Assembly: GCA_020628815.1 (NCBI GenBank)
Contig: JAHDEN010000006.1
Coordinates: 1 to 64,000, forward strand
Direction of reading: 5' to 3'
DNA from: Chloroflexota bacterium
GTDB taxonomy: Bacteria; Chloroflexota; Anaerolineae; Promineifilales; Promineifilaceae
DNA length: 64,000 bases
Shown here: in pieces, positions 1 to 64,000 of the stretch
Numbering within the stretch: the first letter of the stretch is position 1
How the letters are laid out: every line of letters starts with the position of its first letter
Position numbers and translations under genes: made by a program
Notes under the pieces: model-generated
Told to the model about the DNA's origin: nothing
Database searches by the model: none
What the model saw: only the letters and a program-made list of their open reading frames with translations

Positions 1-26
1 CTTAGCCGTTGGGAGCGTTTAAAACG

Positions 27-545
27 ATGAAGTATATAACGACAATTGATGGCACAGAATTCACAATTGAGTGGAATGAATCTGGGCAAGTTTTGGTTGA
101 TGGCGAGCCGTATAATGTTTCCTTGAACAGTTTGGGCAATGGGGACATGGTTTCGATGATTTTTAACAATCGTTCAATCGAGGCGGTTGTAAACTCGGCC
201 GAGCGTGACCGTTGGGAACTTTTGCTGAACGGAGAAAATTATGATGTGCGTGTGCAAGATGAACGTGCATATCGTTTGGCTCGCGCCCGTGGTGAACTGG
301 AAGGCGATTCCGGCCTAGTTCCCACCAAATCCCCCATGCCGGGTGTGATTGTGAATGTCTTGGTTAATGTGGGGCAGGCCGTTAAAAAGGGTGAAACTCT
401 AGTTATTCTTGAATCGATGAAGATGGAGAATGAGTTAAAAGCGACACTTGACGGCACCGTGCAAGAAATCATGGTTGAAGCTGGTGCGACGGTTGAGAAA
501 GGGGCGGTTTTGGTTACTGTAGGTGACGAAGAGGTCGCTGAGTAA
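27..545 (+). CDS. Biotin/lipoyl-attachment domain protein (acyl-CoA carboxylase / biotin carboxyl carrier subunit)
   Basis: C-terminal biotinyl domain with ESMKMENELKA (biotinylation motif). ORF track begins at TTG 9; ATG at 27 is the likelier start. Confidence 0.85.
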   Translation: MKYITTIDGTEFTIEWNESGQVLVDGEPYNVSLNSLGNGDMVSMIFNNRSIEAVVNSAERDRWELLLNGENYDVRVQDERAYRLARARGELEGDSGLVPTKSPMPGVIVNVLVNVGQAVKKGETLVILESMKMENELKATLDGTVQEIMVEAGATVEKGAVLVTVGDEEVAE

Positions 546-561
546 AGTGACTAAAGAGATA

Positions 562-630
562 GTCATTCCCAGGAAGGTGGGAATCTAGTGTCCCGAATGG
601 CGCTGGATACCTGTCTACGCAGGTATGACG
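562..630. repeat. 69-bp dispersed palindromic (REP-like) repeat, copy 1
   Basis: GTCATTCCCAGGAAGGTGGGAATCTAGTGTCCCGAATGGCGCTGGATACCTGTCTACGCAGGTATGACG; two hairpins; aligns end to end with 25672-25740. Confidence 0.8.
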
Positions 631-680
631 TTATCGGCCGAAGCGCCGTCTGTACGCTTTAAAGATCACAAAATTTATAA

Positions 681-716
681 AGCCCAATCCCGTTTTCAGG
701 ATTGGGCTTTTTTTTT
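681..716 (+). terminator. Rho-independent terminator
   Basis: AGCCCAATCC-cgttttca-GGATTGGGCT followed by a T run. Confidence 0.9.
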
Positions 717-719
717 GCG

Positions 720-1847
720 CTAAAGTTCTATGTCGCTACCCAACCGACGCGCGACAAATTGATACATGTCCCAAATGGTTCCTTCAAAATCGTCGGGAGC
801 TAGGAAGTTGGACCCCAAATAGCGACTTTTTAACCCCTTTTGTAGGGTTTCCAGTTTTTCTTTGTCTTCTTCATTAAACTCGCGACACAATTTCACATAG
901 TCAATTGCGGATTGGTCATCTGGTTGAGCCGTTGAGATGACGCCCCAGCGAATGGCGACCTGATCTGGCCCGGCCGGGCGTAAGCACATGTAAACACAGG
1001 CGTTTGTTGCCAACCCGATCACATGGTTGGGGTTGATGGCAAACATGGGGGACTGCCGAGTTTCTTCTTTGGTTAGCCCTCCAGGATAGGGGAGCCGCTC
1101 TGGGTAATTGGGGTTGTATTTGGCCCAATAGCCGGTGTAGTAATCATCATGGGGCATTTTGACACACAGGGATGTCGGGGTAATCGGGTGCAATGTTTTG
1201 ACATGGGTTGGACTTAGGTGGTATCCCTCCATAAAGTTTTCGGCCAAACATTTCCAGTTGCAGTCCCAAATTGTTTCTTCCCCAAACACAAAGTTCCGCT
1301 CACCCATTTTGTAGTTTTGGATGATTTCTTCAATCCCGCCAAGCTGTTCTGCGAGCGGCGGGGCGTTGCCGTCTAAGTTTACGTAGATGAACCCTTGCCA
1401 AATTTCTGTGGCAAAGTTGGGCAAGGTGCAGTTAGCTTTTTCAAATCCTTTAACTTGATCCATTAGCGGAGCGTTTTGCAAACGGCCGGATGAATCGTAG
1501 ACCCACGCATGGTAGCCACAGATGAACTTTTTGCGATTGCCCGTGCCTTGGGCCAAGATGTTCCCACGGTGGCGGCAAACGTTTGACAAGATGCGAACTT
1601 CGCCGTGTTCATCTCGCAGGACAATCATCTGTTCGCCCACTAATTCGGTGGTGAAATAATCGCCCGGATTTGGAATTTCACCCGTATGCCCAACGCAGAC
1701 CCACTCTTTGCGAAAAATATGCTCTTCTTCAAGGGCTAAAAATTCGGCCGATGTGTAATAGCTGGGGGGCATTGTGCGAGCTTGATCTGCACTTAGCGAC
1801 TTGAGCTTTGTTAGCTCCTCGCGAATTTCTTGGACGGTTAAACTCAT
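720..1847 (-). CDS. Rieske (2Fe-2S) aromatic ring-hydroxylating / betaine-type oxygenase alpha subunit
   Basis: Rieske CRHRGN...CGYHAWVY motif and catalytic-domain NFMEGYHLSPTH. Confidence 0.9.
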   Translation of the reverse strand: MSLTVQEIREELTKLKSLSADQARTMPPSYYTSAEFLALEEEHIFRKEWVCVGHTGEIPNPGDYFTTELVGEQMIVLRDEHGEVRILSNVCRHRGNILAQGTGNRKKFICGYHAWVYDSSGRLQNAPLMDQVKGFEKANCTLPNFATEIWQGFIYVNLDGNAPPLAEQLGGIEEIIQNYKMGERNFVFGEETIWDCNWKCLAENFMEGYHLSPTHVKTLHPITPTSLCVKMPHDDYYTGYWAKYNPNYPERLPYPGGLTKEETRQSPMFAINPNHVIGLATNACVYMCLRPAGPDQVAIRWGVISTAQPDDQSAIDYVKLCREFNEEDKEKLETLQKGLKSRYLGSNFLAPDDFEGTIWDMYQFVARRLGSDIEL

Positions 1848-1880
1848 TTTCCTTTCCTCTTCTTCAACTGTGCCAATCTT

Positions 1881-2939
1881 TTATTTTTTAGTTCTAACGA
1901 GCGATGTGTCACGACCTCGGCCGACTTTGCGTTTGTGCCAAATTTCAAGCACAGCGATTTTGGTTGAGTGATTAAACGGCCGAGGATCAGTCACAGGATC
2001 ATCGACAATTGTGCTTTCATAGCCGGTAAAGTCAAACGGTATATCAATTTGCTCCACGAGCCGCACAAAACGATGCCCTGCCAAATCTTCAAGCTGCTGT
2101 TTGTATTCTTGCCCCGAAACAAACAGGGCATTGTTGATGGCGACAATTTGCCCACCGTTGGCAACCAAGGGGCGAAGTCGATTAATTAGCCGGCCGATAT
2201 CTTCTGCTAAATCAACTTTTCCTTTGCCGGTTTTAGAGAAAAAAGGTGGGTCTAGAATGACCAAATCGAATGGATGACCGCTTTTGTTATATTGCTTCAC
2301 CATCGAAAAGAAATCTTGGGATATGAACTCTTTTTTGTTGATGGGATATCCGTTTAGCGTGTAGCTGGTTTTGGCCACGTTCAAAAACTTTTTGTTTAAA
2401 TCGGTTTGGATAACCTGTTTTGCGCCCCCGGCCATGGCCGCAACGCCCAAGCTACCGGTGTACGCAAACGTGTTTAATACCGTTTTACCTTTGCTGTTGG
2501 TAATCAGCCACTCTCGTAGAAGGCGTGTGTCCAAATAAAAACTGGCATCCCGATTCATGGTTAGGTCAACCGAGTAGCGGACTCCGTGCTCACGGATAGA
2601 CGTGTTGGCTTTTTCTCCGTAGACTATGATCCCGTTTTTAGCTTCGGCCGACTCCCCTTTGCGCACCTTTAGCACGATGGTTTGGATCCAAGGCAGCTTG
2701 ATCATGATGAATTGCCGTGCAATCGAAACCGATTGATCACCATCGGCCGGAATTTTGGCATAGTTGTGGATTACGGCCGTTTGAGCGTAAATGTCGATGG
2801 CTAGATCTCGGCAGCCTTCGTAAAAGCCGTTGAGCAGTCTAAACGCCCCCTCGTGTTTAGGGTCTGCATCGATTAAAGGTTGTCGGGCTGTTAGCGCCAG
2901 ATTGAGGATTGTTTCTAAGTCGTTTGGGATTCCGTGCAT
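1881..2939 (-). CDS. Class I SAM-dependent methyltransferase (RlmI/RlmK-like)
   Basis: NTFAYTGSLGVAAMAGG SAM-binding region and DLVILDPPFFSKTGKG. Confidence 0.8.
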   Translation of the reverse strand: MHGIPNDLETILNLALTARQPLIDADPKHEGAFRLLNGFYEGCRDLAIDIYAQTAVIHNYAKIPADGDQSVSIARQFIMIKLPWIQTIVLKVRKGESAEAKNGIIVYGEKANTSIREHGVRYSVDLTMNRDASFYLDTRLLREWLITNSKGKTVLNTFAYTGSLGVAAMAGGAKQVIQTDLNKKFLNVAKTSYTLNGYPINKKEFISQDFFSMVKQYNKSGHPFDLVILDPPFFSKTGKGKVDLAEDIGRLINRLRPLVANGGQIVAINNALFVSGQEYKQQLEDLAGHRFVRLVEQIDIPFDFTGYESTIVDDPVTDPRPFNHSTKIAVLEIWHKRKVGRGRDTSLVRTKK

Positions 2940-3129
2940 ATGCGGCCTATTTTACCCGTTTTTTGCAGAAGGCCTTTGAAACTTTATAAATTGCATTTGG
3001 AATCAGGCTTCTAACTAATCTTAGGGAGTGTCATACCCACCTGCACGAGTATGACACAGCCACAAAGGAGTGGGGCTCATAAATGTTACACAGCTCTATT
3101 TACTTGGTTCCCCAAGTGCTGAAACATTG

Positions 3130-4542: not shown

Positions 4543-4618
4543 CGGGGTCTCTCCTGAATAAATTGATTCTACATGACTCTGTCTGTTTGAACAGGACCAT
4601 ATGAGAGATTGTCGGCCG

Positions 4619-4704
4619 GATAGGCTCCCAGAAGGGGGAGCCTTGCTCCGAGTTTGCGAGAGCCAAGCTCCGAGCTTGCAAGAGTCGCACTCCGAGTACC
4701 CGGC
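4619..4704. repeat. Short hairpin plus degenerate ~22-bp tandem repeat (3 units)
   Basis: GAGCCTTGCTCCGAGTTTGCGA / GAGCCAAGCTCCGAGCTTGCAA / GAGTCGCACTCCGAGTACCCGG, preceded by GGCTCCC...GGGAGCC. Confidence 0.65.
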
Positions 4705-4707
4705 AAA

Positions 4708-5376: not shown

Positions 5377-5566
5377 TTTTCCTCCAATGGTTTATTGAGC
5401 TGGTAATGACGCAGCAATTTGCGGGTCGAAAATTGATTGTTCACATTTTATTCAAGGATTTTTAAATAGGCGAACTTAAAGATTCGACATGGCTTGTCTT
5501 TCTTTGTTTCTAGATCTCTCGATTTCTCGTAGAATTTTGCAGATTGTTTAATGGAGAAAAGAACTT

Positions 5567-6766: not shown

Positions 6767-6784
6767 GCACAAAGGCACTTAACG

Positions 6785-7066
6785 ATGGAATACACAGCAA
6801 ACCACATCCCAGAACAGAACCGCTATGACGTTGATTTAGGCGTAGGGCATACGGCCTTTTTAACTTATTCAGATCGTGATGGGGTGCGATACATTATGCA
6901 TACTGAGGTGCCGGCCGAATTGCGCGGCGGCGGGTATGGCAAAGTTTTGATGGAAGCGGCGTTGACAAAAATGGCGGAGGAAAAAGTAATTGTTTCGGCC
7001 GTCTGTTCCTATGCGCGGATTTACATCGAACGCCACAAAGAATGGCACCATTTGCGGGCTGCGTAG
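6785..7066 (+). CDS. GNAT-family (YjdJ-type) N-acetyltransferase
   Basis: TEVPAELRGGGYGKVLMEAAL acetyl-CoA binding motif; small 93-aa protein. Confidence 0.8.
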   Translation: MEYTANHIPEQNRYDVDLGVGHTAFLTYSDRDGVRYIMHTEVPAELRGGGYGKVLMEAALTKMAEEKVIVSAVCSYARIYIERHKEWHHLRAA

Positions 7067-7087
7067 CATGCAAATGGTGCACATTTT

Positions 7088-7141
7088 TTAGACGCTAAGG
7101 CGCGAAGACGTAAAGAAAACCCTCTGCGCCTTAGCGTCTAA
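7088..7141. repeat. Perfect 16-bp inverted repeat
   Basis: TTAGACGCTAAGGCGC ... GCGCCTTAGCGTCTAA with 22-nt spacer. Confidence 0.9.
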
Positions 7142-10096: not shown

Positions 10097-10097
10097 A

Positions 10098-11542: not shown

Positions 11543-14500
11543 CTATGGCTTAGACACGATTGGCAAGAATACCTGCCATCCCCGACTGACTGTAACTGTA
11601 ACAGGGCCATGGATGGTTTCAACACCGCTGGTATCGATATCGACTAACCAGTAGGTGTATGTACCTGGCGCTGGAACATCATCAACAAGCGAGTAGTTGT
11701 TGCCCGGAGCCGGGCCGTTGTCGATCGTAGATGGGATCCAGCCAACCGATTGAGAATCGGTGATTCGGCCGTTGTTAGAGCGCAAAACCTTGAATCCGAA
11801 ATGGTCTATTTCTGATGCGGTTTGCCATAGTAAGGTTGCTTGACGATTGCCCGTGCGCATGCCGGTAAATGAGACAAGCTCAACGGCCGATGGCGGAACT
11901 GGGGCTGGAACTTGGATGATTTCAAAGTCAGAGTCATCCTCGTCATTGGGGTCTTGGTCATTGGTGACATCGTCGTCGTTAATCGTGTCTGAATCACCGC
12001 TATCATCAGTTGGGTCAGAGTCGTTGTCGTCTCCGCTGTCCTCGATGATGTCCGCCACATTTTTGATGGCTTGTGACTCGCTCACGATTGTGGCAACGAT
12101 GGTGAAAATCGCCATTTCGCCTGGGGCTAGATTTGTTCCAGTCCAGATGATTTCACCACTTTGCCCCAATGGGGGTGCTGATGTGGCTGCAGGATTAACT
12201 GACACTAAAGTTAATTCAGCTGGCAATTTGTCTGCAACTTTGTATTCACCACTATCAAGCTCACCTTGGTTCATGACAGTGATCTGATACGTAATCTCTT
12301 GGCCGATTGTGTATGGGCCAGTTGATACGATCTCTTTGATCAATGCAAGGTCATATTCACCCAAGACGATTTCTTCAAAGTCAGAGTCGTCCTCGTCGTT
12401 CGGGTCTTGGTCGTTGGTGACGTCATCGTCGTCAAAGGTGTCAGAGTTGTCAGAATCATCGGTAGGATCAGAGTCGTCATCCTCACCGCTATCAGCGGTG
12501 ATCTCAGCCGTATTCTTGATTGGGCTACCAGGTGCAGGTGCTGCATCGATGCGAGCAACTAAGGTAAATACAGCGATGTCGCCGGGTGCTAGATTTGTTG
12601 CGTCCCATGTAATTGTTCCGCTGCTGCCAACGGCCGGGCTGCTGGTGGCTGCTGGGCTGGCAGAAACAAAGACGAGTTCTGCTGGCAGATTATCTTCAAC
12701 GGTGTAATCACCACTGTTGATGTCACCCTGATTCATCACTTCGATTTGATAGGTGATCTCTTGGCCAAGCTGATAAGGTCCGGCCGAGACGATTTTCTTA
12801 ACCAGTGCCAAGTCATATTCCGCAACTGGGACAAACTCAAAGTCAGAGTCGTCTTCGTCGTTCGGGTCCTGGTCATTGGTGACATCATCGTCGTTAAAGG
12901 TGTCATCTTCATCAGAGTTGTCAGTTGGATCAGAGTCATCGTCTTCTCCACTGTCAGCCGTGATTTCAGCGATGTTTTTGATTGGTGCGGTTGGTAATGA
13001 GGCGAGCTCAGCCGTGATGGTGAAGGTCACCATGTCTCCAGCGGCTAGATTGGTGCTGTCCCATGAGACAGTCCCGCTGGTGCCAACGGCCGGAGCCGTG
13101 GTTGCCGCTGGGTTAGCCGAGACAAAGGTCAATTCGGCCGGAAGCGTATCTTCAACGGTGAAATCACCACTGTTTGTTTGACCCTGGTTCATGACCATAA
13201 CATTAAAGGTGATTTGATCGCCAACTGCGAATGGACCAGGTGAGACCAGCCGCTTGATCAGGGCTAAGTCATATTCAGCGATGGGGACAAACTCAAAGTC
13301 CGAGTCATCCTCGTCGTTGGGGTCTTGGTCATTGGTGACATCGTCATCGTTAAAGGTGTCATCTTCGTCTGAATTGTCAGCTGGATCAGAGTCATCGTCG
13401 TTTCCGCTGTCAGCCGTGATTTCCGCGATATTTTTGATCGGGGTCGCTGGGATAGAGGCAAGTTCAGCCGTGATGGTGAAGGTCACCATGTCTCCAGCAG
13501 CCAGATTGGTACTGTCCCATGAGACAATCCCGCTGGTACCAACGGCCGGAGCTGTGGTTGCCGCAGGATTCGCTGAGACGAAGGTCAATTCGGCCGGGAG
13601 TGTATCCTCAACGGTGAAATCACCACTGTTTGTTTGACCCTGATTCATCACCACAACGTTAAAGGTGATTTGATCGCCAACTGCGAATGGACCGGTTGAA
13701 ACAATCCGCTTGATCAAAGCTAAGTCATATTCAGCGATGGGGACAAACTCAAAGTCAGAGTCATCTTCGTCGTTGTCGTCTTTGTCATTGGTGACGTCAT
13801 CGTCGTTAAAGGTGTCGTCTTCGTCAGAATTGTCAGCTGGATCAGAGTCATCGTCGTTTCCGCTGTCAGCTGTAATTTCTGCGATGTTTTTGATCGGTGC
13901 GGTCGAGAATGCTGCGAGTTCAGCCGTAATGGTGAAGGTCACCATATCGCCAGCGGCCAAGTCGGTGCTGTCCCATGAGACGACACCGCTAGTGCCAACG
14001 ACCGGAGCCGTTGTGGCGACAGGGTCGGCAGAGACAAAGGTCAATTCGGCCGGAAGCGTATCTTCAACAGTGAAGTCTCCACTGTTTACGGTCCCTTGGT
14101 TCATGACCACAATAGAGAATGTAACTTGATCGCCAACATCAAATGGACCTGTTGAAACAAGTCGCTTGATAAGGGCTAAGTCGTATTCACCTACAACAAT
14201 CTCTTCAAAGTCAGAGTCGTCTTCGTCGTTGTCGTCTTTGTCATTGGTGACGTCATCGTCGTTAAAGGTGTCATCTTCGTCTGAATTATCAGTTGGGTCA
14301 GAGTCGTCGTCTTCTCCACTGTCAGACGTAATTTCTGCAATGTTTTTGATCGGGCCGGTTGGCAGCGAATCGATTTCGGCCGTAACGGTGAAAGTCACAA
14401 TTTCGCCAGGGATTAAGTTGGTGCCGGTCCAAGTGATGACACCCGTAGAGCCAAAGCCTGGATCAATCGTCGCTGCAGGGTTTGCAGACACAAAGGTCAG

Positions 14501-16402
14501 CTCCGGCGGTAAGGTGTCAGCTACGGTGTACTCACCACTATCCACGCCACCCTGATTCATAACCAAGATGTTAAAGGTGACTTGATCACCAACTTGGTAA
14601 GGGCCGGTTGAAGCCACACGTTTGATCAATGCCAAGTCATAATTTCCAGGCATGAGTCGATACAGGTAATCTTCTACCTCGCCGTCTGGGGCGGGGCCAT
14701 CCGGGCCAAGATCATCGGCCGTGCTCAAGCGGAACCGAACACCAAGATCTGTATCAACAGCCGCTCCTGCAGGAACGGTAAAGGTCATGGGGACCTCAAG
14801 GTCAGTTGAGCCGGTCGGGATGGTGGTGCTAATGACTTCGTTGGGGCCGTCAAAGCTGCCGTCGCCGTTCCAGTCTACGAAGGCGTAGAAGAATGCATCT
14901 TGCCCTGTATTGTTGGTGACTGAACCTGTAAAGACTGCGGTATCACCAATTTTGGGGACTGGCGGGAGTTCAATGCCATCTTCGTCATCACCATTGGCGT
15001 CATCACCTGTGGCTGTTGCGTTTGGTTGTCCATCAAGTTCATCGTCAACAATTGGGCCAATGCCTAAAGTTGGGATAATAGGATGGCTTGGTCCCGGGGT
15101 TCCGGTAGAGTCGGTGTTGTAAATGCCATCGGGCAAGTCACCCCAGTCGGCCGGTGGCGGCAATGGGATCAAGAACGCAGTTCCCAAAATATCACCACTG
15201 ATTCCTGCTTGGGTAGAGCCTGGCTCCCGAACCGATTCCGCTTGGATACAAGCCCACTCATCGCCCGTGTTTAATGTAATTGCGTCTGGCTCAACAACTT
15301 CGTCCCATTCAGTTCCTAAAGAACTGTTCCAAATCGATTCATACCCGGTTCGGATTTGAGTCCCGCTGTTCACGATCGTTCCGGCTGGTCCGGAGCCGTC
15401 AGCGCTATTAACGGTTGGAGGAGTTCCTGTGCCGGTTAGATAGAAGAGTCGCCCACCACGGAAAGGGGATGCGGCATTGGCTTGTCCAGACATGATCGCA
15501 GCGATATCAACTTGAGTTGCGGCCGGAACAGTTGGGAAGGTAACACAAACTAAATCTGAATAATTACCTGCGTAAGGCTGATCTTGGACTTCGTAAAACC
15601 AGTCTAAACCGGTGTGAAAGGCTACTTTGCCATAATCGAATTCGAGACATTCGTGGAATACATGAATCCCAACACCGTAGATTTCACTATTGTTTACGTC
15701 AGGATCTGACTCATCAGGCAAAGGCAGAACAACTCCCGAAATGGCGATGTTATTTACTCCGGCCGTCCAATCCGCGTCAAACTGCGTGGTGACGTCAATG
15801 AGTGCATTGCGCCGATAAAACGCTCGGCTGTCGGCGGCAGGGTTGACAGAGTCAAAACGGCCCCAATATTGATCGGTAATCGTAAAGTTGTTGCTCCCGT
15901 TCCCGTTAATGTCAATGTTTAGATCGGGATCGAAGTTTGGAATATTGTTGCCAGCGTCAACGACTGACTGTTCACCACGCCAGCGCATGTACCATTCAAC
16001 ATATGCTCCATGAATGATAGGCTTGCTCCCGTTTGAACAAGCAGGGACGTCTACGTCAAAGTTGTCGGCCACTGTATCTTCAAAGAAGGACTTGCCCCCA
16101 ACAGCAATATCGACCCGGCCGGTAAAGGCCACATACTCTGTTAGCGGCGTGTCGATATTGTCGGTGCCAGTAGGTAAAGATGAAACAAGAATGCCGTTAA
16201 TGTCATTAATGGCCGAAACATCTGGATTGTCGTTAGATGCTTCTAATGTACTTGTTTCTTCAGCGCTTGCTGTTAACACGCCAAAAGTAACCGGCAAAAA
16301 CAATCCCAGCATAAACACCAAGGGGAGAATTGTTAAATGCCGTTTATTGTTTTTTACGCGATTTGGATACGAGGAGGTAAACTGCTTTGGTTGGATGGTC
16401 AT
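11543..16402 (-). CDS. Large secreted DUF11/GEVED repeat protein with Asp-rich linkers
   Basis: Signal peptide; GEVED-like segment (DWNGDGSFDGPNEVI...GEVEDYLYR); six DUF11 repeats starting xYDLAL(I/V)K; C-terminal VFLPIVSKP. Confidence 0.9.
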   Translation of the reverse strand: MTIQPKQFTSSYPNRVKNNKRHLTILPLVFMLGLFLPVTFGVLTASAEETSTLEASNDNPDVSAINDINGILVSSLPTGTDNIDTPLTEYVAFTGRVDIAVGGKSFFEDTVADNFDVDVPACSNGSKPIIHGAYVEWYMRWRGEQSVVDAGNNIPNFDPDLNIDINGNGSNNFTITDQYWGRFDSVNPAADSRAFYRRNALIDVTTQFDADWTAGVNNIAISGVVLPLPDESDPDVNNSEIYGVGIHVFHECLEFDYGKVAFHTGLDWFYEVQDQPYAGNYSDLVCVTFPTVPAATQVDIAAIMSGQANAASPFRGGRLFYLTGTGTPPTVNSADGSGPAGTIVNSGTQIRTGYESIWNSSLGTEWDEVVEPDAITLNTGDEWACIQAESVREPGSTQAGISGDILGTAFLIPLPPPADWGDLPDGIYNTDSTGTPGPSHPIIPTLGIGPIVDDELDGQPNATATGDDANGDDEDGIELPPVPKIGDTAVFTGSVTNNTGQDAFFYAFVDWNGDGSFDGPNEVISTTIPTGSTDLEVPMTFTVPAGAAVDTDLGVRFRLSTADDLGPDGPAPDGEVEDYLYRLMPGNYDLALIKRVASTGPYQVGDQVTFNILVMNQGGVDSGEYTVADTLPPELTFVSANPAATIDPGFGSTGVITWTGTNLIPGEIVTFTVTAEIDSLPTGPIKNIAEITSDSGEDDDSDPTDNSDEDDTFNDDDVTNDKDDNDEDDSDFEEIVVGEYDLALIKRLVSTGPFDVGDQVTFSIVVMNQGTVNSGDFTVEDTLPAELTFVSADPVATTAPVVGTSGVVSWDSTDLAAGDMVTFTITAELAAFSTAPIKNIAEITADSGNDDDSDPADNSDEDDTFNDDDVTNDKDDNDEDDSDFEFVPIAEYDLALIKRIVSTGPFAVGDQITFNVVVMNQGQTNSGDFTVEDTLPAELTFVSANPAATTAPAVGTSGIVSWDSTNLAAGDMVTFTITAELASIPATPIKNIAEITADSGNDDDSDPADNSDEDDTFNDDDVTNDQDPNDEDDSDFEFVPIAEYDLALIKRLVSPGPFAVGDQITFNVMVMNQGQTNSGDFTVEDTLPAELTFVSANPAATTAPAVGTSGTVSWDSTNLAAGDMVTFTITAELASLPTAPIKNIAEITADSGEDDDSDPTDNSDEDDTFNDDDVTNDQDPNDEDDSDFEFVPVAEYDLALVKKIVSAGPYQLGQEITYQIEVMNQGDINSGDYTVEDNLPAELVFVSASPAATSSPAVGSSGTITWDATNLAPGDIAVFTLVARIDAAPAPGSPIKNTAEITADSGEDDDSDPTDDSDNSDTFDDDDVTNDQDPNDEDDSDFEEIVLGEYDLALIKEIVSTGPYTIGQEITYQITVMNQGELDSGEYKVADKLPAELTLVSVNPAATSAPPLGQSGEIIWTGTNLAPGEMAIFTIVATIVSESQAIKNVADIIEDSGDDNDSDPTDDSGDSDTINDDDVTNDQDPNDEDDSDFEIIQVPAPVPPSAVELVSFTGMRTGNRQATLLWQTASEIDHFGFKVLRSNNGRITDSQSVGWIPSTIDNGPAPGNNYSLVDDVPAPGTYTYWLVDIDTSGVETIHGPVTVTVSRGWQVFLPIVSKP
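12342..14650 (-). repeat. Intragenic tandem repeats of ~456 bp (DUF11 plus Asp-rich linker)
   Basis: Reverse complement of the EYDLAL codons recurs near 12351, 12811, 13266, 13723, 14179 and 14635 (spacing 455-460 bp). Confidence 0.9.
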
Positions 16403-16880
16403 AATGCTTTACCTTCGATTTTGAATCGTAAATTTATATTTTTCATTGGGTCCATTCATCCTGCTTTTTTATTGGTTCTTCTCTGATTTTATTTCAGAAG
16501 CCCGATATATTCCAACATTATGCAAAGTTACTAGGACATTAGTATAGCATCATAATTGGATATGAAATTTAAATCAGGTGGGGTAACTACGTATTTTTAT
16601 TTAAATATCTTGTGTTAAGCAGGTTATAGAATGCAATTATAAGTCGGTTAGAAACTTCTCGTAGTCAACTGTTCTTGATTGCACCCCTGAGAAATAAGTA
16701 GGTTAAATAGATGCCTGCTTTTATAGAATTGTAGACGAATGAACTCGATTTTAGGTTTAGTATTTGTTTGAAAAGCTTCGCTCGCACTTGTTTGCACTTA
16801 GACATAAACCAGCTGTTTTAGGTGCGTAGGTAATCTATAAGTCACATCGTTTAATTCCAAAATTAGGATACGCTTGAATC

Positions 16881-18794: not shown

Positions 18795-19829
18795 CTATCC
18801 GGCTTCGCTAAATTCTTGAGATAGCTGATCGATGAGCCCTTTGGCCGTGGGTAGATCATTGATTTTCGAAACACCCACGCCCGAATACATCCCCAAAGCT
18901 GAGACATTGCCCGTCATTCCGACAACCGGGGTCAGCTCTTGATACCGTTCAATCGGGGAACCGTCTGGCTCATACGCCACAATCTCATGTTCGTTGGGGC
19001 GTTGGCCGGGTTGTGGACAGCCTGCCGCTTCCCACATTTCAACGCTGTCGTTGCGCAAGATGCGATGGGTCGCGTGTTCCCATCCTTTGTTGAGGCAAAC
19101 GGTGAAAACGGTTGAATCTTGCCCTGCATTTAACAGCGCCTGTTTGTAATCAGCGTGGGCCAAACTTTCTTGGGTCGCGACAAAGCGAGTCCCCATCACC
19201 GCTCCGGCCGCCCCTAAATTGAGCATGTGGCGCACATCGTGGCCGGTTGTGATTCCACCCGCGACCAAGACCGGCATAGAGCCTGAAACTGAGAGCACCT
19301 GGGCCAACGTTTTCTCCAGCGGTTGAGAGGCTTGAACATGGCCCCCAGCTTCTACACCTTGGCAGACAAGATAATCTGCCCCTAAGTCGATGGCCGCTTT
19401 TGCGCCAGCTCCGCTCGTGACTTGAATCCCCATCTTTGCACCTGAGCTGTGGACTTGAGCAACCTGCTCTGGCGTGGGAACGCCCCAAGAAAATTGAACG
19501 GCCGGTACGCCAAGCTCAAGCACAGCTTCTAACGATCTCGGCTTAAAATTGAGCACGTAGTTGACGTAGAAAGCCTCATTTGTTCCCGCTTGAACCTGTT
19601 TAACCATGTCGCAAGCACTTTCGGCCGAATCCCAAGTGAGTGGGAGCGAGGCCAACGCCCCTGCGTTAGCGACGGCGACGGCGAGGTCAACTCCGGCCGG
19701 GCCAGCGATTGACGCTTGGATAATAGGGACGTCTAGGTTGAACCAAGAGCAAAATGTTTGGGCTTGTGGGTTAAGAGCGGTTGATTGGTCGGATCGGCTG
19801 GTTGTCATAATTTTTAGATGGCGTTTCAA
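18795..19829 (-). CDS. Nitronate monooxygenase family (2-nitropropane dioxygenase-like)
   Basis: GADYLVCQGVEAGGHV, PVLVAGGITTGHDVRHMLNLGAAGAVMGTRFVAT. Confidence 0.9.
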   Translation of the reverse strand: MKRHLKIMTTSRSDQSTALNPQAQTFCSWFNLDVPIIQASIAGPAGVDLAVAVANAGALASLPLTWDSAESACDMVKQVQAGTNEAFYVNYVLNFKPRSLEAVLELGVPAVQFSWGVPTPEQVAQVHSSGAKMGIQVTSGAGAKAAIDLGADYLVCQGVEAGGHVQASQPLEKTLAQVLSVSGSMPVLVAGGITTGHDVRHMLNLGAAGAVMGTRFVATQESLAHADYKQALLNAGQDSTVFTVCLNKGWEHATHRILRNDSVEMWEAAGCPQPGQRPNEHEIVAYEPDGSPIERYQELTPVVGMTGNVSALGMYSGVGVSKINDLPTAKGLIDQLSQEFSEAG

Positions 19830-19858
19830 ATTGTTAGCGGTACACTTTGCGGCTGATT

Positions 19859-21418
19859 ATGACCGAAGAAACCTCACCATCCAAATCAAAAACGGGAGCG
19901 CGTAAGCGGAGGCAGAGACGAGGGGGCAGCGATGCATCGACCCCGCCAAAAGTGAACCCGGCCGTCCCTGGCACGTTAGGGGGGCGCTACCAACCCATCC
20001 CACAGAATGAGCTGCCCAAGTTGGACGGTGCGATACGCCACGTTTTGATTGAAACGGGGCTGAGTGAAGCGCCACCGATTGTGATTGAAACGATCACGGC
20101 TCACGGGGGCACCTTAAGCGATGACGGCCGCATCTGTTTTTCGGCCGACCTAATCGACCGGTTTTTGGCCGAGTACAAACGAGATTGGACCCTGCACGGA
20201 CAAGCGGCCGAGCATGATTTGCTGCTTTCAGGCCAGCGGGTCTATTTGGGTACAGGGGGTGCTGCGCCGCAGGTGGTTGATCTTGAAACCGGCCGATACC
20301 GTGATTCAACGCTGCAAGATTTGTACGATGCGGCTCGCCTGTGCGACACGCTCGACAACGTCCACTTTTTTAGCCGGTCGCTGGTCGCACGTGACATGCC
20401 AACCTCTTTATTGATGGACGTGAACACCGCTTATGCTGCGTTGAGTGGGACTCAAAAACATGTGTTTACCAGCATCACAGATCCTGAAAATGTCGCTCCT
20501 GTAGCGGAGCTGTGCTATTTGATTGCTGGCTCTCGCGAGGCGTTTGAGCAACGGCCGTTTATCTCGCTTAATATCAATCATGTGGTGCCCCCATTGCGCT
20601 ACCATGCGGAATCGATTGGGGTGATGGCGGAGGCGGTTAAGCGGGGGATTCCGGTCCATTGCAACGTGTTTAGCCAAGTGGGGGCTTCAACCCCGGTGAC
20701 GCTGGCGGGGGCGATTGTGCAAAACACGGCGGAGAGTTTGGCCGGTATGATCTTTGCGTGGCTGATTAACCCAGATGCCAAGGCGATCATGGGGCTGCGG
20801 CCGATGTTGACCGATTTGCGCACCGGCGGCATGAGCGGCGGCAGCGGCGAGCAGGCGTTGGTGATGGCCGCATCAGCACAAATGGCTGGGTTTTATAACC
20901 TGCCAAATTCCTGCATTGCGGGGGCGACTGACAGCAAACTGGCTGATGCACAGAGCGGTTATGAAAAAGGATCAACAGTTACGATGGCGGCGTTAGTGGG
21001 GTCAAACTTGGTCACGCAGGCGGCCGGGATGCACGCAGGGCTAATGGCGGTTGCGTTTGAAAGTTATGTTATCGATAACGATATGTTGGGTGGGGTGATG
21101 CGGTCGCTCAGCCCGTTTGAGGTGACAGACACAACAATGGCGACCAACATGATCGATGAGATTGTGCGGGGAGAAGGGCATTTCTTGGGCCATGCTGAAA
21201 CATATAAACGGATGGCGAGCGATTTTTTGTACCCTGATCTGGCTGATCGCAGATCTCCGGCCGAGTGGGAGGAGGCTGGCTCGAAAGATATTCGGGAAGT
21301 GGCGAAAGAGAAGGCCCGTCAGATTTTAGCTACCTATTTCCCGAGCCATATCCCGGCCGAGGTAGATGCAAAGATTCGGGATAAGTTTGATATTCGATTA
21401 AAAAGAAGGGATAGGTAA
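19859..21418 (+). CDS. Trimethylamine methyltransferase (MttB) family protein, non-pyrrolysine type
   Basis: MttB-like length and motifs (GMSGGSGEQALVMAASAQMAGFYNLPNSCIAG, DAQSGYEKG); uninterrupted ORF. ATG 19859 preferred over TTG 19847. Confidence 0.85.
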   Translation: MTEETSPSKSKTGARKRRQRRGGSDASTPPKVNPAVPGTLGGRYQPIPQNELPKLDGAIRHVLIETGLSEAPPIVIETITAHGGTLSDDGRICFSADLIDRFLAEYKRDWTLHGQAAEHDLLLSGQRVYLGTGGAAPQVVDLETGRYRDSTLQDLYDAARLCDTLDNVHFFSRSLVARDMPTSLLMDVNTAYAALSGTQKHVFTSITDPENVAPVAELCYLIAGSREAFEQRPFISLNINHVVPPLRYHAESIGVMAEAVKRGIPVHCNVFSQVGASTPVTLAGAIVQNTAESLAGMIFAWLINPDAKAIMGLRPMLTDLRTGGMSGGSGEQALVMAASAQMAGFYNLPNSCIAGATDSKLADAQSGYEKGSTVTMAALVGSNLVTQAAGMHAGLMAVAFESYVIDNDMLGGVMRSLSPFEVTDTTMATNMIDEIVRGEGHFLGHAETYKRMASDFLYPDLADRRSPAEWEEAGSKDIREVAKEKARQILATYFPSHIPAEVDAKIRDKFDIRLKRRDR

Positions 21419-21420
21419 CG

Positions 21421-22350
21421 ATGAAAATAATGGTATTCGGAGCCGGATCGATGGGATCGATCTATGCGGCGTTGATGGCCTCGTCTGAAAACGGGGGCAA
21501 CGAAGTGTGGGCCGTGGACCAATGGCAAGACCATGTCGATGCGATCAACACACACGGTCTACGTGTGGAGGGGGCCAGCGGAGACCGTACGGTCAAAACG
21601 ATACAAGCCACCACAAATGCGGCCGATGCCGGGCCGTGTGACCTCTATATCATTGCGACAAAAGCGGATGGGGTGCGAGCTGCGGCCGAAGCTGTGTCAC
21701 AAACGATGCGGCCGGACTCGCTGGTGCTAACGATCCAGAATGGATTGGGGGCGGGTGAACGGATCGCAGAGTTTATGCCGACCGAGAACGTGCTGTTGGG
21801 AGTAGCGGCCGGTTTTGGGGCATCGATGCGCGGGCCGGGGCACGCCCATCACAACGACATGAACTTGATCCGGCTGGGTGAAATGAATGGCGGAATGACT
21901 GACAGGCTCCAGATGCTGACCCAGCTGTGGCAGGATGCTGGGTTTAACGCCAAAGCGTTTGCTGACATTAATCAACTGATCTGGGAAAAGTACCTGTGCA
22001 ACATCACCACGGCCGGGCCGTGTACGGTGTTTGATTGTACGTTGGGAGAACTACAGGCAAACCCGATGTGGTGGAAAATAGCCTTAGGCTGTGCAACCGA
22101 GGCGTTTGAATTAGGCAAGGCGCAGAAGATCAACTTTAGCTTTGATGATCATATCGAGTATGTGACCAATTTTGTGGATCGGATGCCGAACGCCCGGCCG
22201 TCGATGTTGCTTGATCACCATGCAAAACGACGCTCAGAGATCGGGGCGATTAACGGGATGGCGTCTGAATTAGGGGAACGGTTGGGGATTCCAACTCCAT
22301 ACAACGATGTGGTGAGCGCGATTGTGCGACGGGCCGAAGAAAAATTCTAG
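21421..22350 (+). CDS. 2-dehydropantoate 2-reductase / ketopantoate reductase family
   Basis: GAGSMGSIYAALMA Rossmann motif; ATKADGVRAAAEAV; LTIQNGLGAGERI. Confidence 0.85.
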   Translation: MKIMVFGAGSMGSIYAALMASSENGGNEVWAVDQWQDHVDAINTHGLRVEGASGDRTVKTIQATTNAADAGPCDLYIIATKADGVRAAAEAVSQTMRPDSLVLTIQNGLGAGERIAEFMPTENVLLGVAAGFGASMRGPGHAHHNDMNLIRLGEMNGGMTDRLQMLTQLWQDAGFNAKAFADINQLIWEKYLCNITTAGPCTVFDCTLGELQANPMWWKIALGCATEAFELGKAQKINFSFDDHIEYVTNFVDRMPNARPSMLLDHHAKRRSEIGAINGMASELGERLGIPTPYNDVVSAIVRRAEEKF

Positions 22351-22371
22351 ACGTTCTGCAGGTGTAAATAC

Positions 22372-23235
22372 ATGAAAATAGCTAGTTTTAAAATTAATAA
22401 TCAAACAGGGTTTGGCGTTGTCGTTGATGGCGCAGTGGTTCCGGCTAGTGCTGAGTTTGCCCAAACCTACCCAACGGTGCGGGATGTGTTGACGGCCGAT
22501 GCGCTAGATCAACTGGCGGCCGATTGTGCCCAATCCCATCAGAAAATTGGGCTGGACAAAGTGCAACTGCTGCCACCTATCACCAACCCTGGCCGGATAT
22601 TTTGCGTCGGGATCAACTATGCCAAACGGTACCCGGTGGCGAACGAAGAGGGTGAGTTCCCGTTTATGCCGCCGCCCGAAAACATTATTTTGTTTGCCAA
22701 GCTTGATGGGACACTTGTAGGCCACGGCCAGCCGCTGGAGATTCCAGCTGGCGAAGCGGCCGAGACGTTTGATTACGAAGGGGAGATTACGGTGGTGATT
22801 GGCAAAGGGGGGCGGCATATCGCGGCCGAGAATGCGTTTGAGCATATCGCTGGATACACCATTATGAACGATGGGAGTGTGCGGGGCTGGCAAAAGCACA
22901 GCGTGCATGCGGGCAAAAACTTTGCCAATTCGGGCGGATGTGGCCCGTGGATGGTCACGGCCGATGAAATTGATGATCCGTTTGCCATGACGTTGCAGAC
23001 CCGTTTAAACGGAGAGCTGGTACAAAACACGGTAGCCAGCGAGATGGTATTTGGCATTCCCGAATTGATCGCTTATATCTCGCACACGATAGATTTGCGG
23101 CCGGGGGATCTCATCGCCACCGGGTCGCCAGAGGGGTCGGGCGGTAGCCGCAAGCCGCAGCGCTTTTTGCGTGCCGGTGACGATTTAGCAATCTCGGTTT
23201 CTGGTATTGGGACACTGAAAAACCGTGTGGGTTAG
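22372..23235 (+). CDS. Fumarylacetoacetate hydrolase family protein
   Basis: FCVGINYAKRYP, FDYEGEITVVIGKGGRHI, GDLIATGSPEGSG. Confidence 0.9.
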   Translation: MKIASFKINNQTGFGVVVDGAVVPASAEFAQTYPTVRDVLTADALDQLAADCAQSHQKIGLDKVQLLPPITNPGRIFCVGINYAKRYPVANEEGEFPFMPPPENIILFAKLDGTLVGHGQPLEIPAGEAAETFDYEGEITVVIGKGGRHIAAENAFEHIAGYTIMNDGSVRGWQKHSVHAGKNFANSGGCGPWMVTADEIDDPFAMTLQTRLNGELVQNTVASEMVFGIPELIAYISHTIDLRPGDLIATGSPEGSGGSRKPQRFLRAGDDLAISVSGIGTLKNRVG

Positions 23236-23723
23236 ATGGGGGTCGAGTTGTCGACTATTTCAGCGATCTCGGCCGGATCTAAATCTTCATTCATCTGTTC
23301 AATGCGCCAGAATTCTTCTTCGGTAAACAAGTAGCCTTCATCGTTTAGATTTTGGTTGCGCTGTAGCACCCGTTTTAAGCGTATCTCGGCCGGGCATTCG
23401 ACCCAAACCAGCTTAAATTGATAGCCTATTCTTGCAGCCTCTTTTCGTACTCCGTCTCGCATCGGTTTGGTGCCAAAGCCTTCTAAAACCAAATCGATGC
23501 CCAAACTGTGTAGCTGTTTGGCCTGTGTCCAAATGAGGGTGTCCATGCGTTTGCAGCAGTCCGCAAAATCAAGCGTTTCGATGTTGTTTCCATAGGCTTT
23601 GACCAGCAGCTCGTCGTGTGAAAGATAAAAGGCTGGCAGGTTGGCCGCCATTTTTTTTGCGATGGTGCTTTTGCCTGCGCCGGTGTGGCCGGTGATTAAG
23701 GTTAGGGTGGGTGATCGATTCAT
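23232..23723 (-). CDS. P-loop (AAA/zeta-toxin-like) small kinase
   Basis: LITGHTGAGKSTIAKKMA. ATG 23723 (MNRSPTLT) preferred; the upstream extension overlaps the divergent gene start. Confidence 0.7.
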   Translation of the reverse strand: MNRSPTLTLITGHTGAGKSTIAKKMAANLPAFYLSHDELLVKAYGNNIETLDFADCCKRMDTLIWTQAKQLHSLGIDLVLEGFGTKPMRDGVRKEAARIGYQFKLVWVECPAEIRLKRVLQRNQNLNDEGYLFTEEEFWRIEQMNEDLDPAEIAEIVDNSTPI

Positions 23724-25626: not shown

Positions 25627-25671
25627 TCTATCACTCTGTAACAAATGTGTTTTTAAAGAGCCTAAAAGAGC

Positions 25672-25740
25672 GTCGTTCCTGCGACGGCAGGAATCTAGTG
25701 CCAGACCGAGCGCTGGATACCCGCCTTCGCGGGTATAACG
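25672..25740. repeat. 69-bp dispersed palindromic (REP-like) repeat, copy 2
   Basis: GTCGTTCCTGCGACGGCAGGAATCTAGTGCCAGACCGAGCGCTGGATACCCGCCTTCGCGGGTATAACG; aligns to 562-630. Confidence 0.8.
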
Positions 25741-25812
25741 GTCCCAACTAGAATTGGGGAATATAAATGCTACAGAGTAGTGTGCTAAACAAAATTTTCT
25801 AAAGGGTAAAAA

Positions 25813-32742: not shown

Positions 32743-33196
32743 CTAACCAAGTTGCCAGTTTTTTTAAATCAGAGCTGAACTGTTCAAGCTCATCGGCCGA
32801 CCACGCTTCAAACCATTGGATAATATCTGGACCCAAATCCTTCATCACGCTCCCAATCGCTTGGTATCCGGCCGGGGTAATCGACACATACTTTTTCCGA
32901 GAATCCTGCTCATCTTTGCGGGTTTCAACCAGTCCCGACTTTGACAGCTTCTGCACAATTTTTGTGATCGCTGGCTGGTTAAGCTCTAACGCATTGGTTA
33001 AATCAGATACCGACTCGTTTTTGTCCTGATGTCGGGCCAAGTGGTTGAGAAGGGCGAATTGGGAATCAGTTAGTCCGCTGCGACTAAACAGCTTGTTCAT
33101 GCGTGATTCAAACAGCTGCGTAGTGATACTCATTTGAGTCGCAAATTTGACGAGTTGGTCTGGTGAAATCATGAATTTAGAAATAGGGGTTGACAA
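32723..33196 (-). CDS. MarR family transcriptional regulator
   Basis: SQFALLNHLARHQ..SVSDLTNALELNQPAITKIVQKLSKSGLVETRKDEQDSRKKYVSITPAG winged helix; exact start uncertain. Confidence 0.92.
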   Translation of the reverse strand: MSTPISKFMISPDQLVKFATQMSITTQLFESRMNKLFSRSGLTDSQFALLNHLARHQDKNESVSDLTNALELNQPAITKIVQKLSKSGLVETRKDEQDSRKKYVSITPAGYQAIGSVMKDLGPDIIQWFEAWSADELEQFSSDLKKLATWLDENRLP

Positions 33197-42274: not shown

Positions 42275-42467
42275 TGGCTACACCCGCTTCGTCTAGAAGC
42301 AAGGTTTGCTCTTCTGTGGTCAATTTTGACTCTTTTAAATCAAACCTAAACGGTGCGGTACGCTCTTCTTTCCAATAATTAAGCTCTCCCCAAACTTCGG
42401 CCGGTGTTCGGCCGTGGAATCTTAATTTTGCGTCGTGCCATCTGGCCCAAAGTACAAGTGGTTTCAT
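42243..42467 (-). CDS. Small conserved-looking hypothetical protein
   Basis: 74-aa ORF overlapping the 3-prime end of the MazG-like gene antiparallel. Confidence 0.45.
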   Translation of the reverse strand: MKPLVLWARWHDAKLRFHGRTPAEVWGELNYWKEERTAPFRFDLKESKLTTEEQTLLLDEAGVAIKDPASSDPD

Positions 42468-49369: not shown

Positions 49370-49893
49370 ACCCGGCTGTAAAACAGGGTTTCAAACGGGT
49401 AGGCGTGTTTTTCATCGGCCGGATGTGGGATCGCTTTATCTACGGACCATCGGGAGCTATCAAAGGTCGGGAACCATGTGTCCCCATCAATTTCGGCATC
49501 TACTTTTGTCAACACCATGTGGGTGAGCAGTGGCAAAAAGAGGCTGTAAATCACACCGCCACCGCCGATAATAATCTCTTTTTCCTCTACAAAATTATTT
49601 TTCGCCTGCTCAAGCGCCTGTTCCACTGTCAGTGCGGTTAAACATCCCTCGGCCGCATAGCTTGCATCACGTGTGAGAATAATGTTGGTTCGTTTTGGCA
49701 GCGGCCGGCCGATGGACTCATACGTTTTGCGCCCCATAATAATCGGCCGGTGAACGGTCAGCCTCTTAAATGATTTTAGATCGTCGGGCAAACGCCAAGG
49801 GAGATCGTTGTTGGCTCCAATGACCCCATTTTTATCCATCGCAGCAACTGCGATCACTTTAATCCCGCTTAAATTTGGCACGTTCATAGACAA
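49366..49893 (-). CDS. folA: Dihydrofolate reductase
   Basis: VAAMDKNGVIGANNDLPWRLPDDLKSFKRLT, IMGRKTYESIGRPLPKRTNIILTR. Confidence 0.96.
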   Translation of the reverse strand: MSMNVPNLSGIKVIAVAAMDKNGVIGANNDLPWRLPDDLKSFKRLTVHRPIIMGRKTYESIGRPLPKRTNIILTRDASYAAEGCLTALTVEQALEQAKNNFVEEKEIIIGGGGVIYSLFLPLLTHMVLTKVDAEIDGDTWFPTFDSSRWSVDKAIPHPADEKHAYPFETLFYSRV

Positions 49894-50690: not shown

Positions 50691-50830
50691 TTGGTTTTCC
50701 TCTCGGCCGGTAAATCAGGCGATATTTGATTGTTGTCATGTTACAACAGTTGTTGAGGAATTACAACAATTGGAACCTTAAAATATAGCTCCTGCTTACT
50801 GATAGAAGAGGGGGGATTTTTTGCTGATGG

Positions 50831-59727: not shown

Positions 59728-59743
59728 TAGTTTTTCGGTTGGT

Positions 59744-59809
59744 CAGTTTGTCAGTGCGCTTCGCTTTCAGTCTTCTGAAATACTGAGAAACTGAACCACT
59801 GACTAACTG
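59744..59809. repeat. Imperfect inverted repeat at gene boundary
   Basis: CAGTTTGTCAGTG ... CACTGACTAACTG, one mismatch in 13 bp. Confidence 0.7.
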
Positions 59810-61737: not shown

Positions 61738-61791
61738 AGTTTCATTGAAGTGGAAATAGTTCGTCAATCAAAAATCGTAAATCGTCAATTG

Positions 61792-62592
61792 TCATTCTTT
61801 CTCCCACCGCTCAGATACTTCATCCTGCACCAAGCGGCGCTGAATCCCGGCCGGAATCCAGTTGCGTAGCGCATAGATCAGGCGCATTTTGCGGCCGGAG
61901 ACAACGAACGTTTTCTTTGCTTCAAACGCTCTCCACACATCATCAGCGACCTCTTCGGCCGTGGTCGCCGCCAATCCTTCAAACGTTTTAACATAGTCCA
62001 TCTCGGCCGCCTGTTTGAACGGCGTGTTGCTAATGGCGGCCGGTAAAACCGCCATTACCCGCACGCTTTTTTCTTGCATGATCATCTCTTCTTGCAAACA
62101 CTGGCTAAAGTGGGCCACAAACGCTTTGGTCGATGCGTAAACAGAAAATTTAGGGACGTGGGTGACGGCCGAATTTGAAGCGATATTGATAATCGTCCCG
62201 TCGTCACGTGGCACCATCACCTGCAAGAACAGTTTGGTTAACTTGTAAACATTCAAAATGTTTAGATTAATCATCGTCAGCTCTTTTTCCATTTCTGTGC
62301 GATGGAAATAGCCGAACACCCCAATCCCAGCATTGTTGATTAGCACATCGACAACCCGATTCTGGTCTTCGACCCAATCAAACACCTTTTGCGCCCCATC
62401 TTCTTGCGCCAAGTCAACGGTGAGCGTTTCGATTTTGACATCTTTGTACAGCGATTCTAGCTCCGCTTTTTTGGAAGCAAGCTCATCTGCCAACAGGGAG
62501 GCCCACATGATGCGATAGCCGTCGGCCGCAAATTTTTTCGAGATTTCGAACCCGATCCCGCTGGAACCGCCCGTGATTAAAACTGTTTTCAT
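61792..62592 (-). CDS. SDR family oxidoreductase
   Basis: VLITGGSSGIGFEISKKF, LINNAGIGVFG, NIASNSAVTHVPKFSVYASTKAFV. Confidence 0.92.
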   Translation of the reverse strand: MKTVLITGGSSGIGFEISKKFAADGYRIMWASLLADELASKKAELESLYKDVKIETLTVDLAQEDGAQKVFDWVEDQNRVVDVLINNAGIGVFGYFHRTEMEKELTMINLNILNVYKLTKLFLQVMVPRDDGTIINIASNSAVTHVPKFSVYASTKAFVAHFSQCLQEEMIMQEKSVRVMAVLPAAISNTPFKQAAEMDYVKTFEGLAATTAEEVADDVWRAFEAKKTFVVSGRKMRLIYALRNWIPAGIQRRLVQDEVSERWEKE

Positions 62593-62595
62593 AAT

Positions 62596-62652
62596 TCTGT
62601 TGGGCAGGCATCCCTGCCTGCCATAAATTAAACAGGCAAGGATGCCTGTTCA
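62596..62652. repeat. Nested inverted repeat between SDR and carboxyltransferase genes
   Basis: AGGCATCCCTGCCTG ... CAGGCAAGGATGCCT; each half is itself hairpin-prone. Confidence 0.7.
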
Positions 62653-62664
62653 ACGGAAAATATT

Positions 62665-63981
62665 TTACATGCGGGCCACACCAAAGGAATTGGGAAACAG
62701 TGTTCTTCTGTTTGCTTCATCGGCCGTGGCTAACAAAAATGCCAACACCTTGCGCGTGTCACGTGGATCAATGATCCCGTCATCCATGAGCCAGCCCGAT
62801 GTGAAAAACGCATCTGACTGACTGTTGAACACCCGAATAATCTCTTTTTCCTGCGCTTCCAACATTTCTGGTGGGATGGTTTGTCCTCGGCGGGCCGCGC
62901 TCCCTTCCATCACAATGCGCATGGTGGTCGCCGCCTGTTCGCCACCCATGACACCCGTTTGAGCATTGGGCCAACTTAGCAAAAAGTCAGGCTCATACGC
63001 CCGGCCGCACATCCCATAGTTGCCCGCGCCAAAACTGGCACCAATCATCAGCGTGAATTTCGGGACGGTCGCATTGCTCACCGCCTGGATCATTTTTGAA
63101 CCGTGTTTAATCATCCCGCCCTGTTCATAAACGGTGCCAACCATGTAGCCGGTTGTGTTTTGCAAAAAGATAAGCGGGGTGTTTGACTGGCAGTTGAGCT
63201 GGATAAATTGGGCCACTTTTGTCGCCCCTTCGTTGTCGATCGGCCCGTTGTTCCCGATAAACGCGCACGGGTAGCCGTGGATGTTCGCCTGAACACAGAC
63301 GGTTGCGCTACCGTAGCGGCTCTTGAATTCGAGCAGATCAGAATCATCCACAATGCGGGCGATGACCTCTTTGACGTCGTAAGGCTGGCGATAGTCAACC
63401 GGCACAATACCGGCCAACTCATCTGCGCTGTGTCGTGGTTCTCTAAAGGATGGGGTTTGGCGTGGCTGAGCCGTTTTGGTGTGCCAGTTTAATTTTTGCA
63501 CGACCTCACGCCCCAACCGGATGCCGTCGGTGTCGTTTTCGGCCAAATATTCAACCAATCCAGAAATAGTGGCGTGCATCTCTGCTCCGCCTAAATCGGC
63601 CGCATTCGCCTCTTCACCCGTTGCCGCTTTCACCAGTGGGGGACCGGCCAAAAACGCCTGACCCCGGCCGCGCACGCCGATCACCACGTCGCTCATGCCG
63701 GGAAAATAGGCGCCACCGGCGGTTGACGAGCCGTGCAAAACGGTAATCACCGGACATCCGGCCGCGCTTAATTTAGCAAAGTTGCGGAACAGCGCACCCC
63801 CTTGAATAAACAGTTGAACCCGATATTCAAGCAGGTTGGCTCCGGCGCTTTCAACCAGATGGATAAACGGCAGTTTTTGTTCTAGCGCAATATCTTGGCA
63901 GCGTTGGATTTTGGCCCCACCAATTTCAGAGATGGCCCCTGCATTGATGCCGCTATCGGTCGCCACGATCATGCAGCGCAC
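62665..63981 (-). CDS. Acyl-CoA carboxylase carboxyltransferase (beta) subunit, N-terminus beyond window
   Basis: GGAYFPGMSDVVIGVRGRGQAFLAGPPLVKAATGEE, GMCGRAYEPDFLLSWPNAQTGVMGGEQAATTM; MCC/GCC-like. ORF reaches the window edge. Confidence 0.93.
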   Translation of the reverse strand: MRCMIVATDSGINAGAISEIGGAKIQRCQDIALEQKLPFIHLVESAGANLLEYRVQLFIQGGALFRNFAKLSAAGCPVITVLHGSSTAGGAYFPGMSDVVIGVRGRGQAFLAGPPLVKAATGEEANAADLGGAEMHATISGLVEYLAENDTDGIRLGREVVQKLNWHTKTAQPRQTPSFREPRHSADELAGIVPVDYRQPYDVKEVIARIVDDSDLLEFKSRYGSATVCVQANIHGYPCAFIGNNGPIDNEGATKVAQFIQLNCQSNTPLIFLQNTTGYMVGTVYEQGGMIKHGSKMIQAVSNATVPKFTLMIGASFGAGNYGMCGRAYEPDFLLSWPNAQTGVMGGEQAATTMRIVMEGSAARRGQTIPPEMLEAQEKEIIRVFNSQSDAFFTSGWLMDDGIIDPRDTRKVLAFLLATADEANRRTLFPNSFGVARM

Positions 63982-64000
63982 CCCGTTAACAAAGCCGATG

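Follow-up and report, generated by a model that had tools for sequence, protein, structure and literature searches.

Why does the hexamer CGGCCG recur so densely along this stretch of DNA, and what keeps it there? The window, meaning the whole 64,000-bp stretch that was analysed (49.2% GC), contains 238 copies, alike on both strands, or about one per 269 bp, whereas the runner-up palindromic hexamer occurs 47 times. The original prediction, that the word is extremely over-abundant, is confirmed, and the excess is stronger than first noted; the 24 copies counted by eye between 19801 and 23400 are the exact number. In the whole genome (6.5 Mb) CGGCCG is found 22,240 times, about every 290 bp or 3,400 per Mb, compared with 1,218 copies of the reversed control GCCGGC.

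The excess persists under each null model. In the window, the ratio of observed to expected copies (O/E) is 16.8 by composition, 12.3 under a first-order, 6.4 under a second-order and 3.4 under a third-order Markov model, the higher orders giving lower values because they absorb CGGCCG itself. A codon-preserving shuffle of the 52 window ORFs yields 35.5 ± 5.5 copies where 230 are observed (z=35), a 6.5-fold excess. When the sites are divided by codon phase, 152/49/29 are found and 22.3/8.5/4.7 after shuffling, which is about six-fold in each phase. Markov and codon-shuffle nulls had been proposed as a check, and the O/E of 3.4-16.8 and the result of the shuffle bear out both the enrichment and the claim that amino-acid or codon bias is insufficient to explain it. 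Use in all three phases was likewise predicted correctly, the cited examples being the sites at 20125, 20142 and 20552 in the ORF at 19847-21418. Equal enrichment of other G/C hexamers, named in advance as evidence to the contrary, is not seen: CCGCGG and GCCGGC stand at 0.24 and 0.55 of expectation, and GGCCGG (3.5) and GCGGCC (2.0) are raised, as would be expected of words with five bases in common with CGGCCG. Under the first-order model the remaining G/C-only hexamers of the window are close to or below expectation, except for the five-base sharers and two at 1.7-2.0. GGGCCC is absent from the window, where about 20 copies are expected, and is scarce in most of the sampled relatives.

The preference was quantified in 583 kb of the window's genome (G000), including 40 further regions, one of which (L303) had no readable bases. 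A position was called permissive if the amino acids there allow CGGCCG, which gives 2,919 positions in 412 ORFs. CGGCCG fills 62.3% of them, alike in all three codon phases (245/398, 1161/1902 and 412/619), and exceeds every other palindrome in occupancy as in window counts, the runner-up filling 24.8%. Independent codon use would lead to 8.5%, for an odds ratio of 17.6. Where five positions match and a change at the sixth is synonymous, about 90% of the hexamers are complete, at each of the six positions. Each alternative to the completing base is reduced 4-20 fold, transitions less so than transversions. A flank rule, considered on account of lower occupancy beside Ala, was rejected, given that overlapping permissive positions compete there. 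The order of amino acids is affected as well: Arg-Pro outnumbers Pro-Arg (398 versus 238), Gly-Arg outnumbers Arg-Gly (721 versus 502), and the tripeptide [SPTA]A[VADEG] is found 1,902 times versus 1,217 for its reverse, with the proviso that reversed-peptide counts are a simple control and that other sources of asymmetry are also possible.

A lack of CGGCCG in non-coding DNA had been hinted at, but the non-coding DNA of G000 holds 211 copies in 105 kb, where 10.5 are expected by composition (about 20-fold; first-order O/E 13.5). Copies are about as dense in short intergenic segments as in long ones; long ORF-free segments may conceal genes under the 120-aa cut-off, and segments below 200 bp are equally dense. 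Nine intergenic copies lie in the window (Table 1). The stretch at 16425-16870 does contain none, as had been observed, and is unremarkable, given that the non-coding density is only about 2 per kb. The pressure acts on the whole hexamer, at all six positions, in coding and non-coding DNA and in all phases, and its strength suffices to skew the order of amino acids.

Table 1. CGGCCG sites and related features of the window. Phases of the three sites in ORF 19847-21418 were derived from coordinates.
Feature	Coordinates	Strand	Basis
CGGCCG copies, whole window	1..64000	.	counts, positions; codon-shuffle null
Stretch with 24 CGGCCG	19801..23400	.	count
CGGCCG, phase nnC-GGC-CGn of ORF 19847-21418 (+)	20125..20130	.	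site list and ORF
CGGCCG, phase nCG-GCC-Gnn of ORF 19847-21418 (+)	20142..20147	.	site list and ORF
CGGCCG, phase CGG-CCG of ORF 19847-21418 (+)	20552..20557	.	site list and ORF
Intergenic CGGCCG	635..640	.	
Intergenic CGGCCG	4613..4618	.	
Intergenic CGGCCG	6912..6917	.	
Intergenic CGGCCG	6996..7001	.	
Intergenic CGGCCG	32794..32799	.	
Intergenic CGGCCG	32869..32874	.	
Intergenic CGGCCG pair, 11 bp apart (42398, 42409)	42398..42414	.	
Intergenic CGGCCG	50704..50709	.	
Overlapping CGGCCG pair, 4 bp apart (CGGCCGGCCG)	49702..49711	.	
Non-coding stretch without CGGCCG, atypical of non-coding DNA	16425..16870	.	

Copies are scattered with little structure. Counts in 5-kb blocks are near-Poisson (variance/mean 1.1), and heterogeneity of occupancy between genes is modest (chi-square 357 on 260). 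The genes of low occupancy mostly encode surface or repeat proteins, along with one TIR-adenylate kinase protein and unknowns. Among the lowest (33% of 45) is the minus-strand gene at 11543-16402, whose 1,619-aa product has six DUF11 stretches together with GEVED and Ig-like matches. By pairwise occupancy, spacing shows no clear target and no clear repulsion, and in a 2x2 test of permissive pairs the odds ratios are near 1 below 30 bp. Spacing selection was rejected, since the apparent short-range repulsion in a first test is mostly explained by reduced occupancy in places crowded with permissive positions. The pressure is site-autonomous, with little or no dependence on neighbouring copies. 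The intergenic DNA of the window also includes a repeat at 25665-25745 with two potential hairpins (DNA fold z -3.6) and a diverged second copy at 543-630; about 40 matches to it are spread over many contigs of a congener (G002), which gives it the appearance of a dispersed REP-like element.

The trait extends well beyond this genome. Across 396 surveyed genomes of the class, a density of at least one CGGCCG per kb together with a CGGCCG count at least double that of GCCGGC was found solely in one family (f1), in 26 of its 32 genomes by reading of the table. A second family of the same order (f2) has a weaker excess in samples G036-G038 and none in G035. The trait covers most sampled members of one order, and the other families of the class, including those of higher GC, are without it. 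Occupancy odds ratios, which come from samples of 4-580 kb and are rough for the small samples of G006, G008, G023, G033, G038 and G045, reach 37.9 in G020, where up to 84% of permissive positions hold the word. The window's genus spans 7-23 and most of f1 lies at 2-6; for G012, G014, G024, G030, G035 and most other families the ratio is close to 1 or lower. G020 and G034, members of one genus, differ widely (38 versus 4). In G014 (4.0 Mb), a member of the otherwise enriched family, there are only 447 copies at 1.3% occupancy, a pattern to be expected under a present or past CGGCCG restriction system. GCCGGC, in turn, is nearly missing from G017 (51 in 8.0 Mb) and G020 (132 in 4.1 Mb), which suggests restriction avoidance. 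In families f30 (G066, G099, G126) and f5 (G134, G264, G299) GCCGGC outnumbers CGGCCG by a factor of 3-6 in raw counts, for example 23,451 versus 6,866 in 3.1 Mb, which possibly marks a different highly iterated palindrome (HIP) elsewhere in the class.

Comparison of congeners shows how the sites behave over time. Against G002, with 77% identity across 24.5 kb, CGGCCG sites are intact in 71% of cases and one base off in 5.5%, compared with 21% and 38% for other hexamers; against G004 the values for CGGCCG are 58% and 13%. Where codons within CGGCCG encode the same amino acid, the codon itself is unchanged in 118 of 139 cases in G002 (62.5 expected, z 9.6) and 110 of 142 in G004 (62.3 expected, z 8.2). 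Such site-by-site conservation was rejected as proof of function, given that the 71% largely follows from high equilibrium occupancy. Of the positions that lack the word in G000 but permit it in both genomes, 55% are filled in G002 and 35% in G004, and those permissive in G000 only are 54-78% filled. With empty positions frequently occupied in a sister and lineage-specific positions filled about as often as others, the pressure is generic, with turnover, rather than bound to particular sites.

Among known systems, the cyanobacterial HIP1 (GCGATCGC) is likewise a GC-rich palindrome with thousands of copies in coding and other DNA, conserved within a clade with sporadic losses, and HIP1 and the alternate HIPs reach 300-2,700 copies per Mb (Elhai 2015, PMC4390886). 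CGGCCG differs in word, in its length of 6 bp with flanks that are not fixed, in its higher density, and in that a matching methyltransferase was not found in G000 or the congener G003. HIP1 proper was rejected because the word differs: the 583 kb of G000 contain 12 copies of GCGATCGC and 136 of CGATCG versus 2,028 of CGGCCG. The alternate HIPs GGCGCC of Calothrix PCC 7103, rCCGGy of Oscillatoria PCC 10802 and GCsGC of Cyanothece PCC 7822 are also short GC palindromes of comparable over-representation (O/E by composition about 15 for GGCGCC in Calothrix D253), but they are sporadic, occur in single strains and are each accompanied by a capable methyltransferase, whereas CGGCCG is common to an order. 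Dominant cyanobacterial palindromes accompany a methyltransferase able to modify them, and some HIP1 genomes are without a CGATCG enzyme (PMC4390886). Presence of a methyltransferase is a correlate of cyanobacterial HIPs with exceptions, outside the definition of a HIP. CGGCCG has the descriptive features, as it is the top palindrome by far, is found genome-wide and does not derive from codon use, and the HIP1-like reading is supported. DNA uptake sequences of Neisseriaceae and Pasteurellaceae are also very abundant words that spread within a clade and are common to related species, but they are 9-12 bp long, directional and sparser, whereas CGGCCG is a 6-bp palindrome without a spacing rule. 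EagI and Eco52I recognise CGGCCG, but a restriction-modification target is usually one that genomes avoid, not enrich, and G014 seems to be a case of this for CGGCCG. A literature search found no paper tying CGGCCG to such a pattern.

An orphan CGGCCG/GGCC methyltransferase had been suggested. The window's genome, which is 77% complete, has one PF00145 match, only marginal PF01555 matches and no PF02086 match. The PF00145 protein aligns through its target recognition region with PDB 3lx6, which we take to be a Dcm of CCWGG specificity, and the observed-to-expected ratio of CCWGG is 0.33 for G000, 0.18 for G002 and 0.27 for G020, versus 1.5 for G003, which is without the gene. By its target region and the depletion of CCWGG, the sole DNA cytosine methyltransferase detected in G000 looks Dcm-like and CCWGG-specific, and for this genome the suggestion is not supported. 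Its close orthologues are restricted to G000, G004, G020 and G027 plus a fragment in G002; in G027 a vsr gene adjoins and the surrounding region holds one CGGCCG in 4 kb, suggesting a recent arrival. This enzyme was rejected as the driver of CGGCCG, given its restricted orthologues and a target domain and CCWGG depletion that point to CCWGG. The enriched congener G003 (94% complete, odds ratio 7.3) has no match to PF00145 (C5), PF02086 (D12) or PF01555 (N6/N4). Many relatives do carry C5, D12 or N6/N4 methyltransferases of unassigned target, and no one family recurs in every enriched genome. No cognate CGGCCG cytosine methyltransferase was detected in G000 or G003, an absence that is strong rather than final, since metagenome bins can lose methyltransferase genes and one may have been missed in the less complete G000. 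Vsr (PF03852) is absent from the window's genus and most of the order, and Vsr-type very short patch repair, which acts at one T:G mismatch position, was rejected on that ground and because all six positions are affected. Phosphorothioation by Dnd was rejected too, as dndC (TIGR03183) is absent from G000-G004 and G020.

The original prediction as a whole is therefore partly supported, and the cause of the pressure has to be weighed. We lean, at slightly less than even confidence, towards CGGCCG as an order-wide HIP under hexamer-level pressure, exerted by weak selection or biased repair through a putative CGGCCG-binding protein. We hold evenly balanced the statement that the HIP is order-wide, independent of methylation, and kept by a putative chromosomal protein that recognises the sequence or by a conversion process specific to the hexamer. 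By inference we favour a recognising protein, since the pressure reaches every position of the hexamer. Such a trans-acting protein, conserved in the order, may be a nucleoid-organising, segregation or repair factor; each copy of the word would be slightly advantageous through it, or repair would favour CGGCCG. With an odds ratio of about 18, the scaled bias per site would then be near ln 18 = 2.9, and differences between species would reflect changed strength of the factor or population size. The equilibrium data fit selection as well as biased mutation or repair and cannot separate them. Two observations speak against the leaning towards a binding protein: a pure constant-selection equilibrium alone does not predict that transitions are less reduced than transversions, and the strongest odds ratios (the window's genus and G020) coincide with the main occurrence of the Dcm-like enzyme, although this coincidence involves two lineages only.

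That weaker reduction of transitions, as if mutation supply matters, fits a bias of mutation or repair alone, in which hexamer-specific repair or conversion turns near-matches into CGGCCG and the word itself brings no benefit; so do site autonomy, the lack of spacing and the similar action in coding and non-coding DNA. This explanation is nonetheless rather unlikely, with effects on all six positions and all alternatives that go beyond any single known mismatch correction, and with no Vsr in the genus or in most of the order. We know of no enzyme that performs hexamer-specific conversion to CGGCCG, and such an enzyme would itself be new. Similarly improbable is the model of Elhai, in which a CGGCCG or GGCC cytosine methyltransferase is present and its target is built up and preserved by methyl-directed mismatch repair. 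It draws on the pairing of every dominant cyanobacterial palindrome with a capable methyltransferase (PMC4390886), on the existence of GGCC m4C enzymes (PMC6560206), on the methyltransferases of unassigned target in relatives, and on the point that one specificity could come from different, non-homologous enzymes. Against it stand the Dcm-like target domain of the sole PF00145 match in G000, the depletion of CCWGG where that gene is present, and G003, enriched without any of the three families, none of which is found in all enriched genomes. Much less probable is an uptake signal, preferred by the transformation machinery and spread by recombination, a role also raised in the original prediction: the word is very abundant, common to related species and of high turnover, but known uptake words are longer and sparser, a 6-bp word every 290 bp discriminates little, and there is neither repulsion or regularity at the kilobase scale of fragments nor an intergenic preference. 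That the excess is an artefact of composition, whether of GC content, codon use or amino acids, can be dismissed almost with certainty. CGGCCG is a G/C-only word that often falls in Ala, Pro, Gly and Arg codons, but the codon shuffle and the reversed-word control refute such an origin, and the 20-fold non-coding excess and the higher-GC families without one also speak against it.

HIP1 has long been known, its function is not agreed, and the leading model links it to methyltransferases. The case of CGGCCG appears to uncouple such a palindrome from methylation. It provides a second clade with a different word, in which congeners of unequal strength, such as G020 and G034, offer independent contrasts. 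CGGCCG is also a DNA-level signal strong enough to mark protein sequence, and it affects analyses of codon usage, gene transfer and selection in these bacteria.
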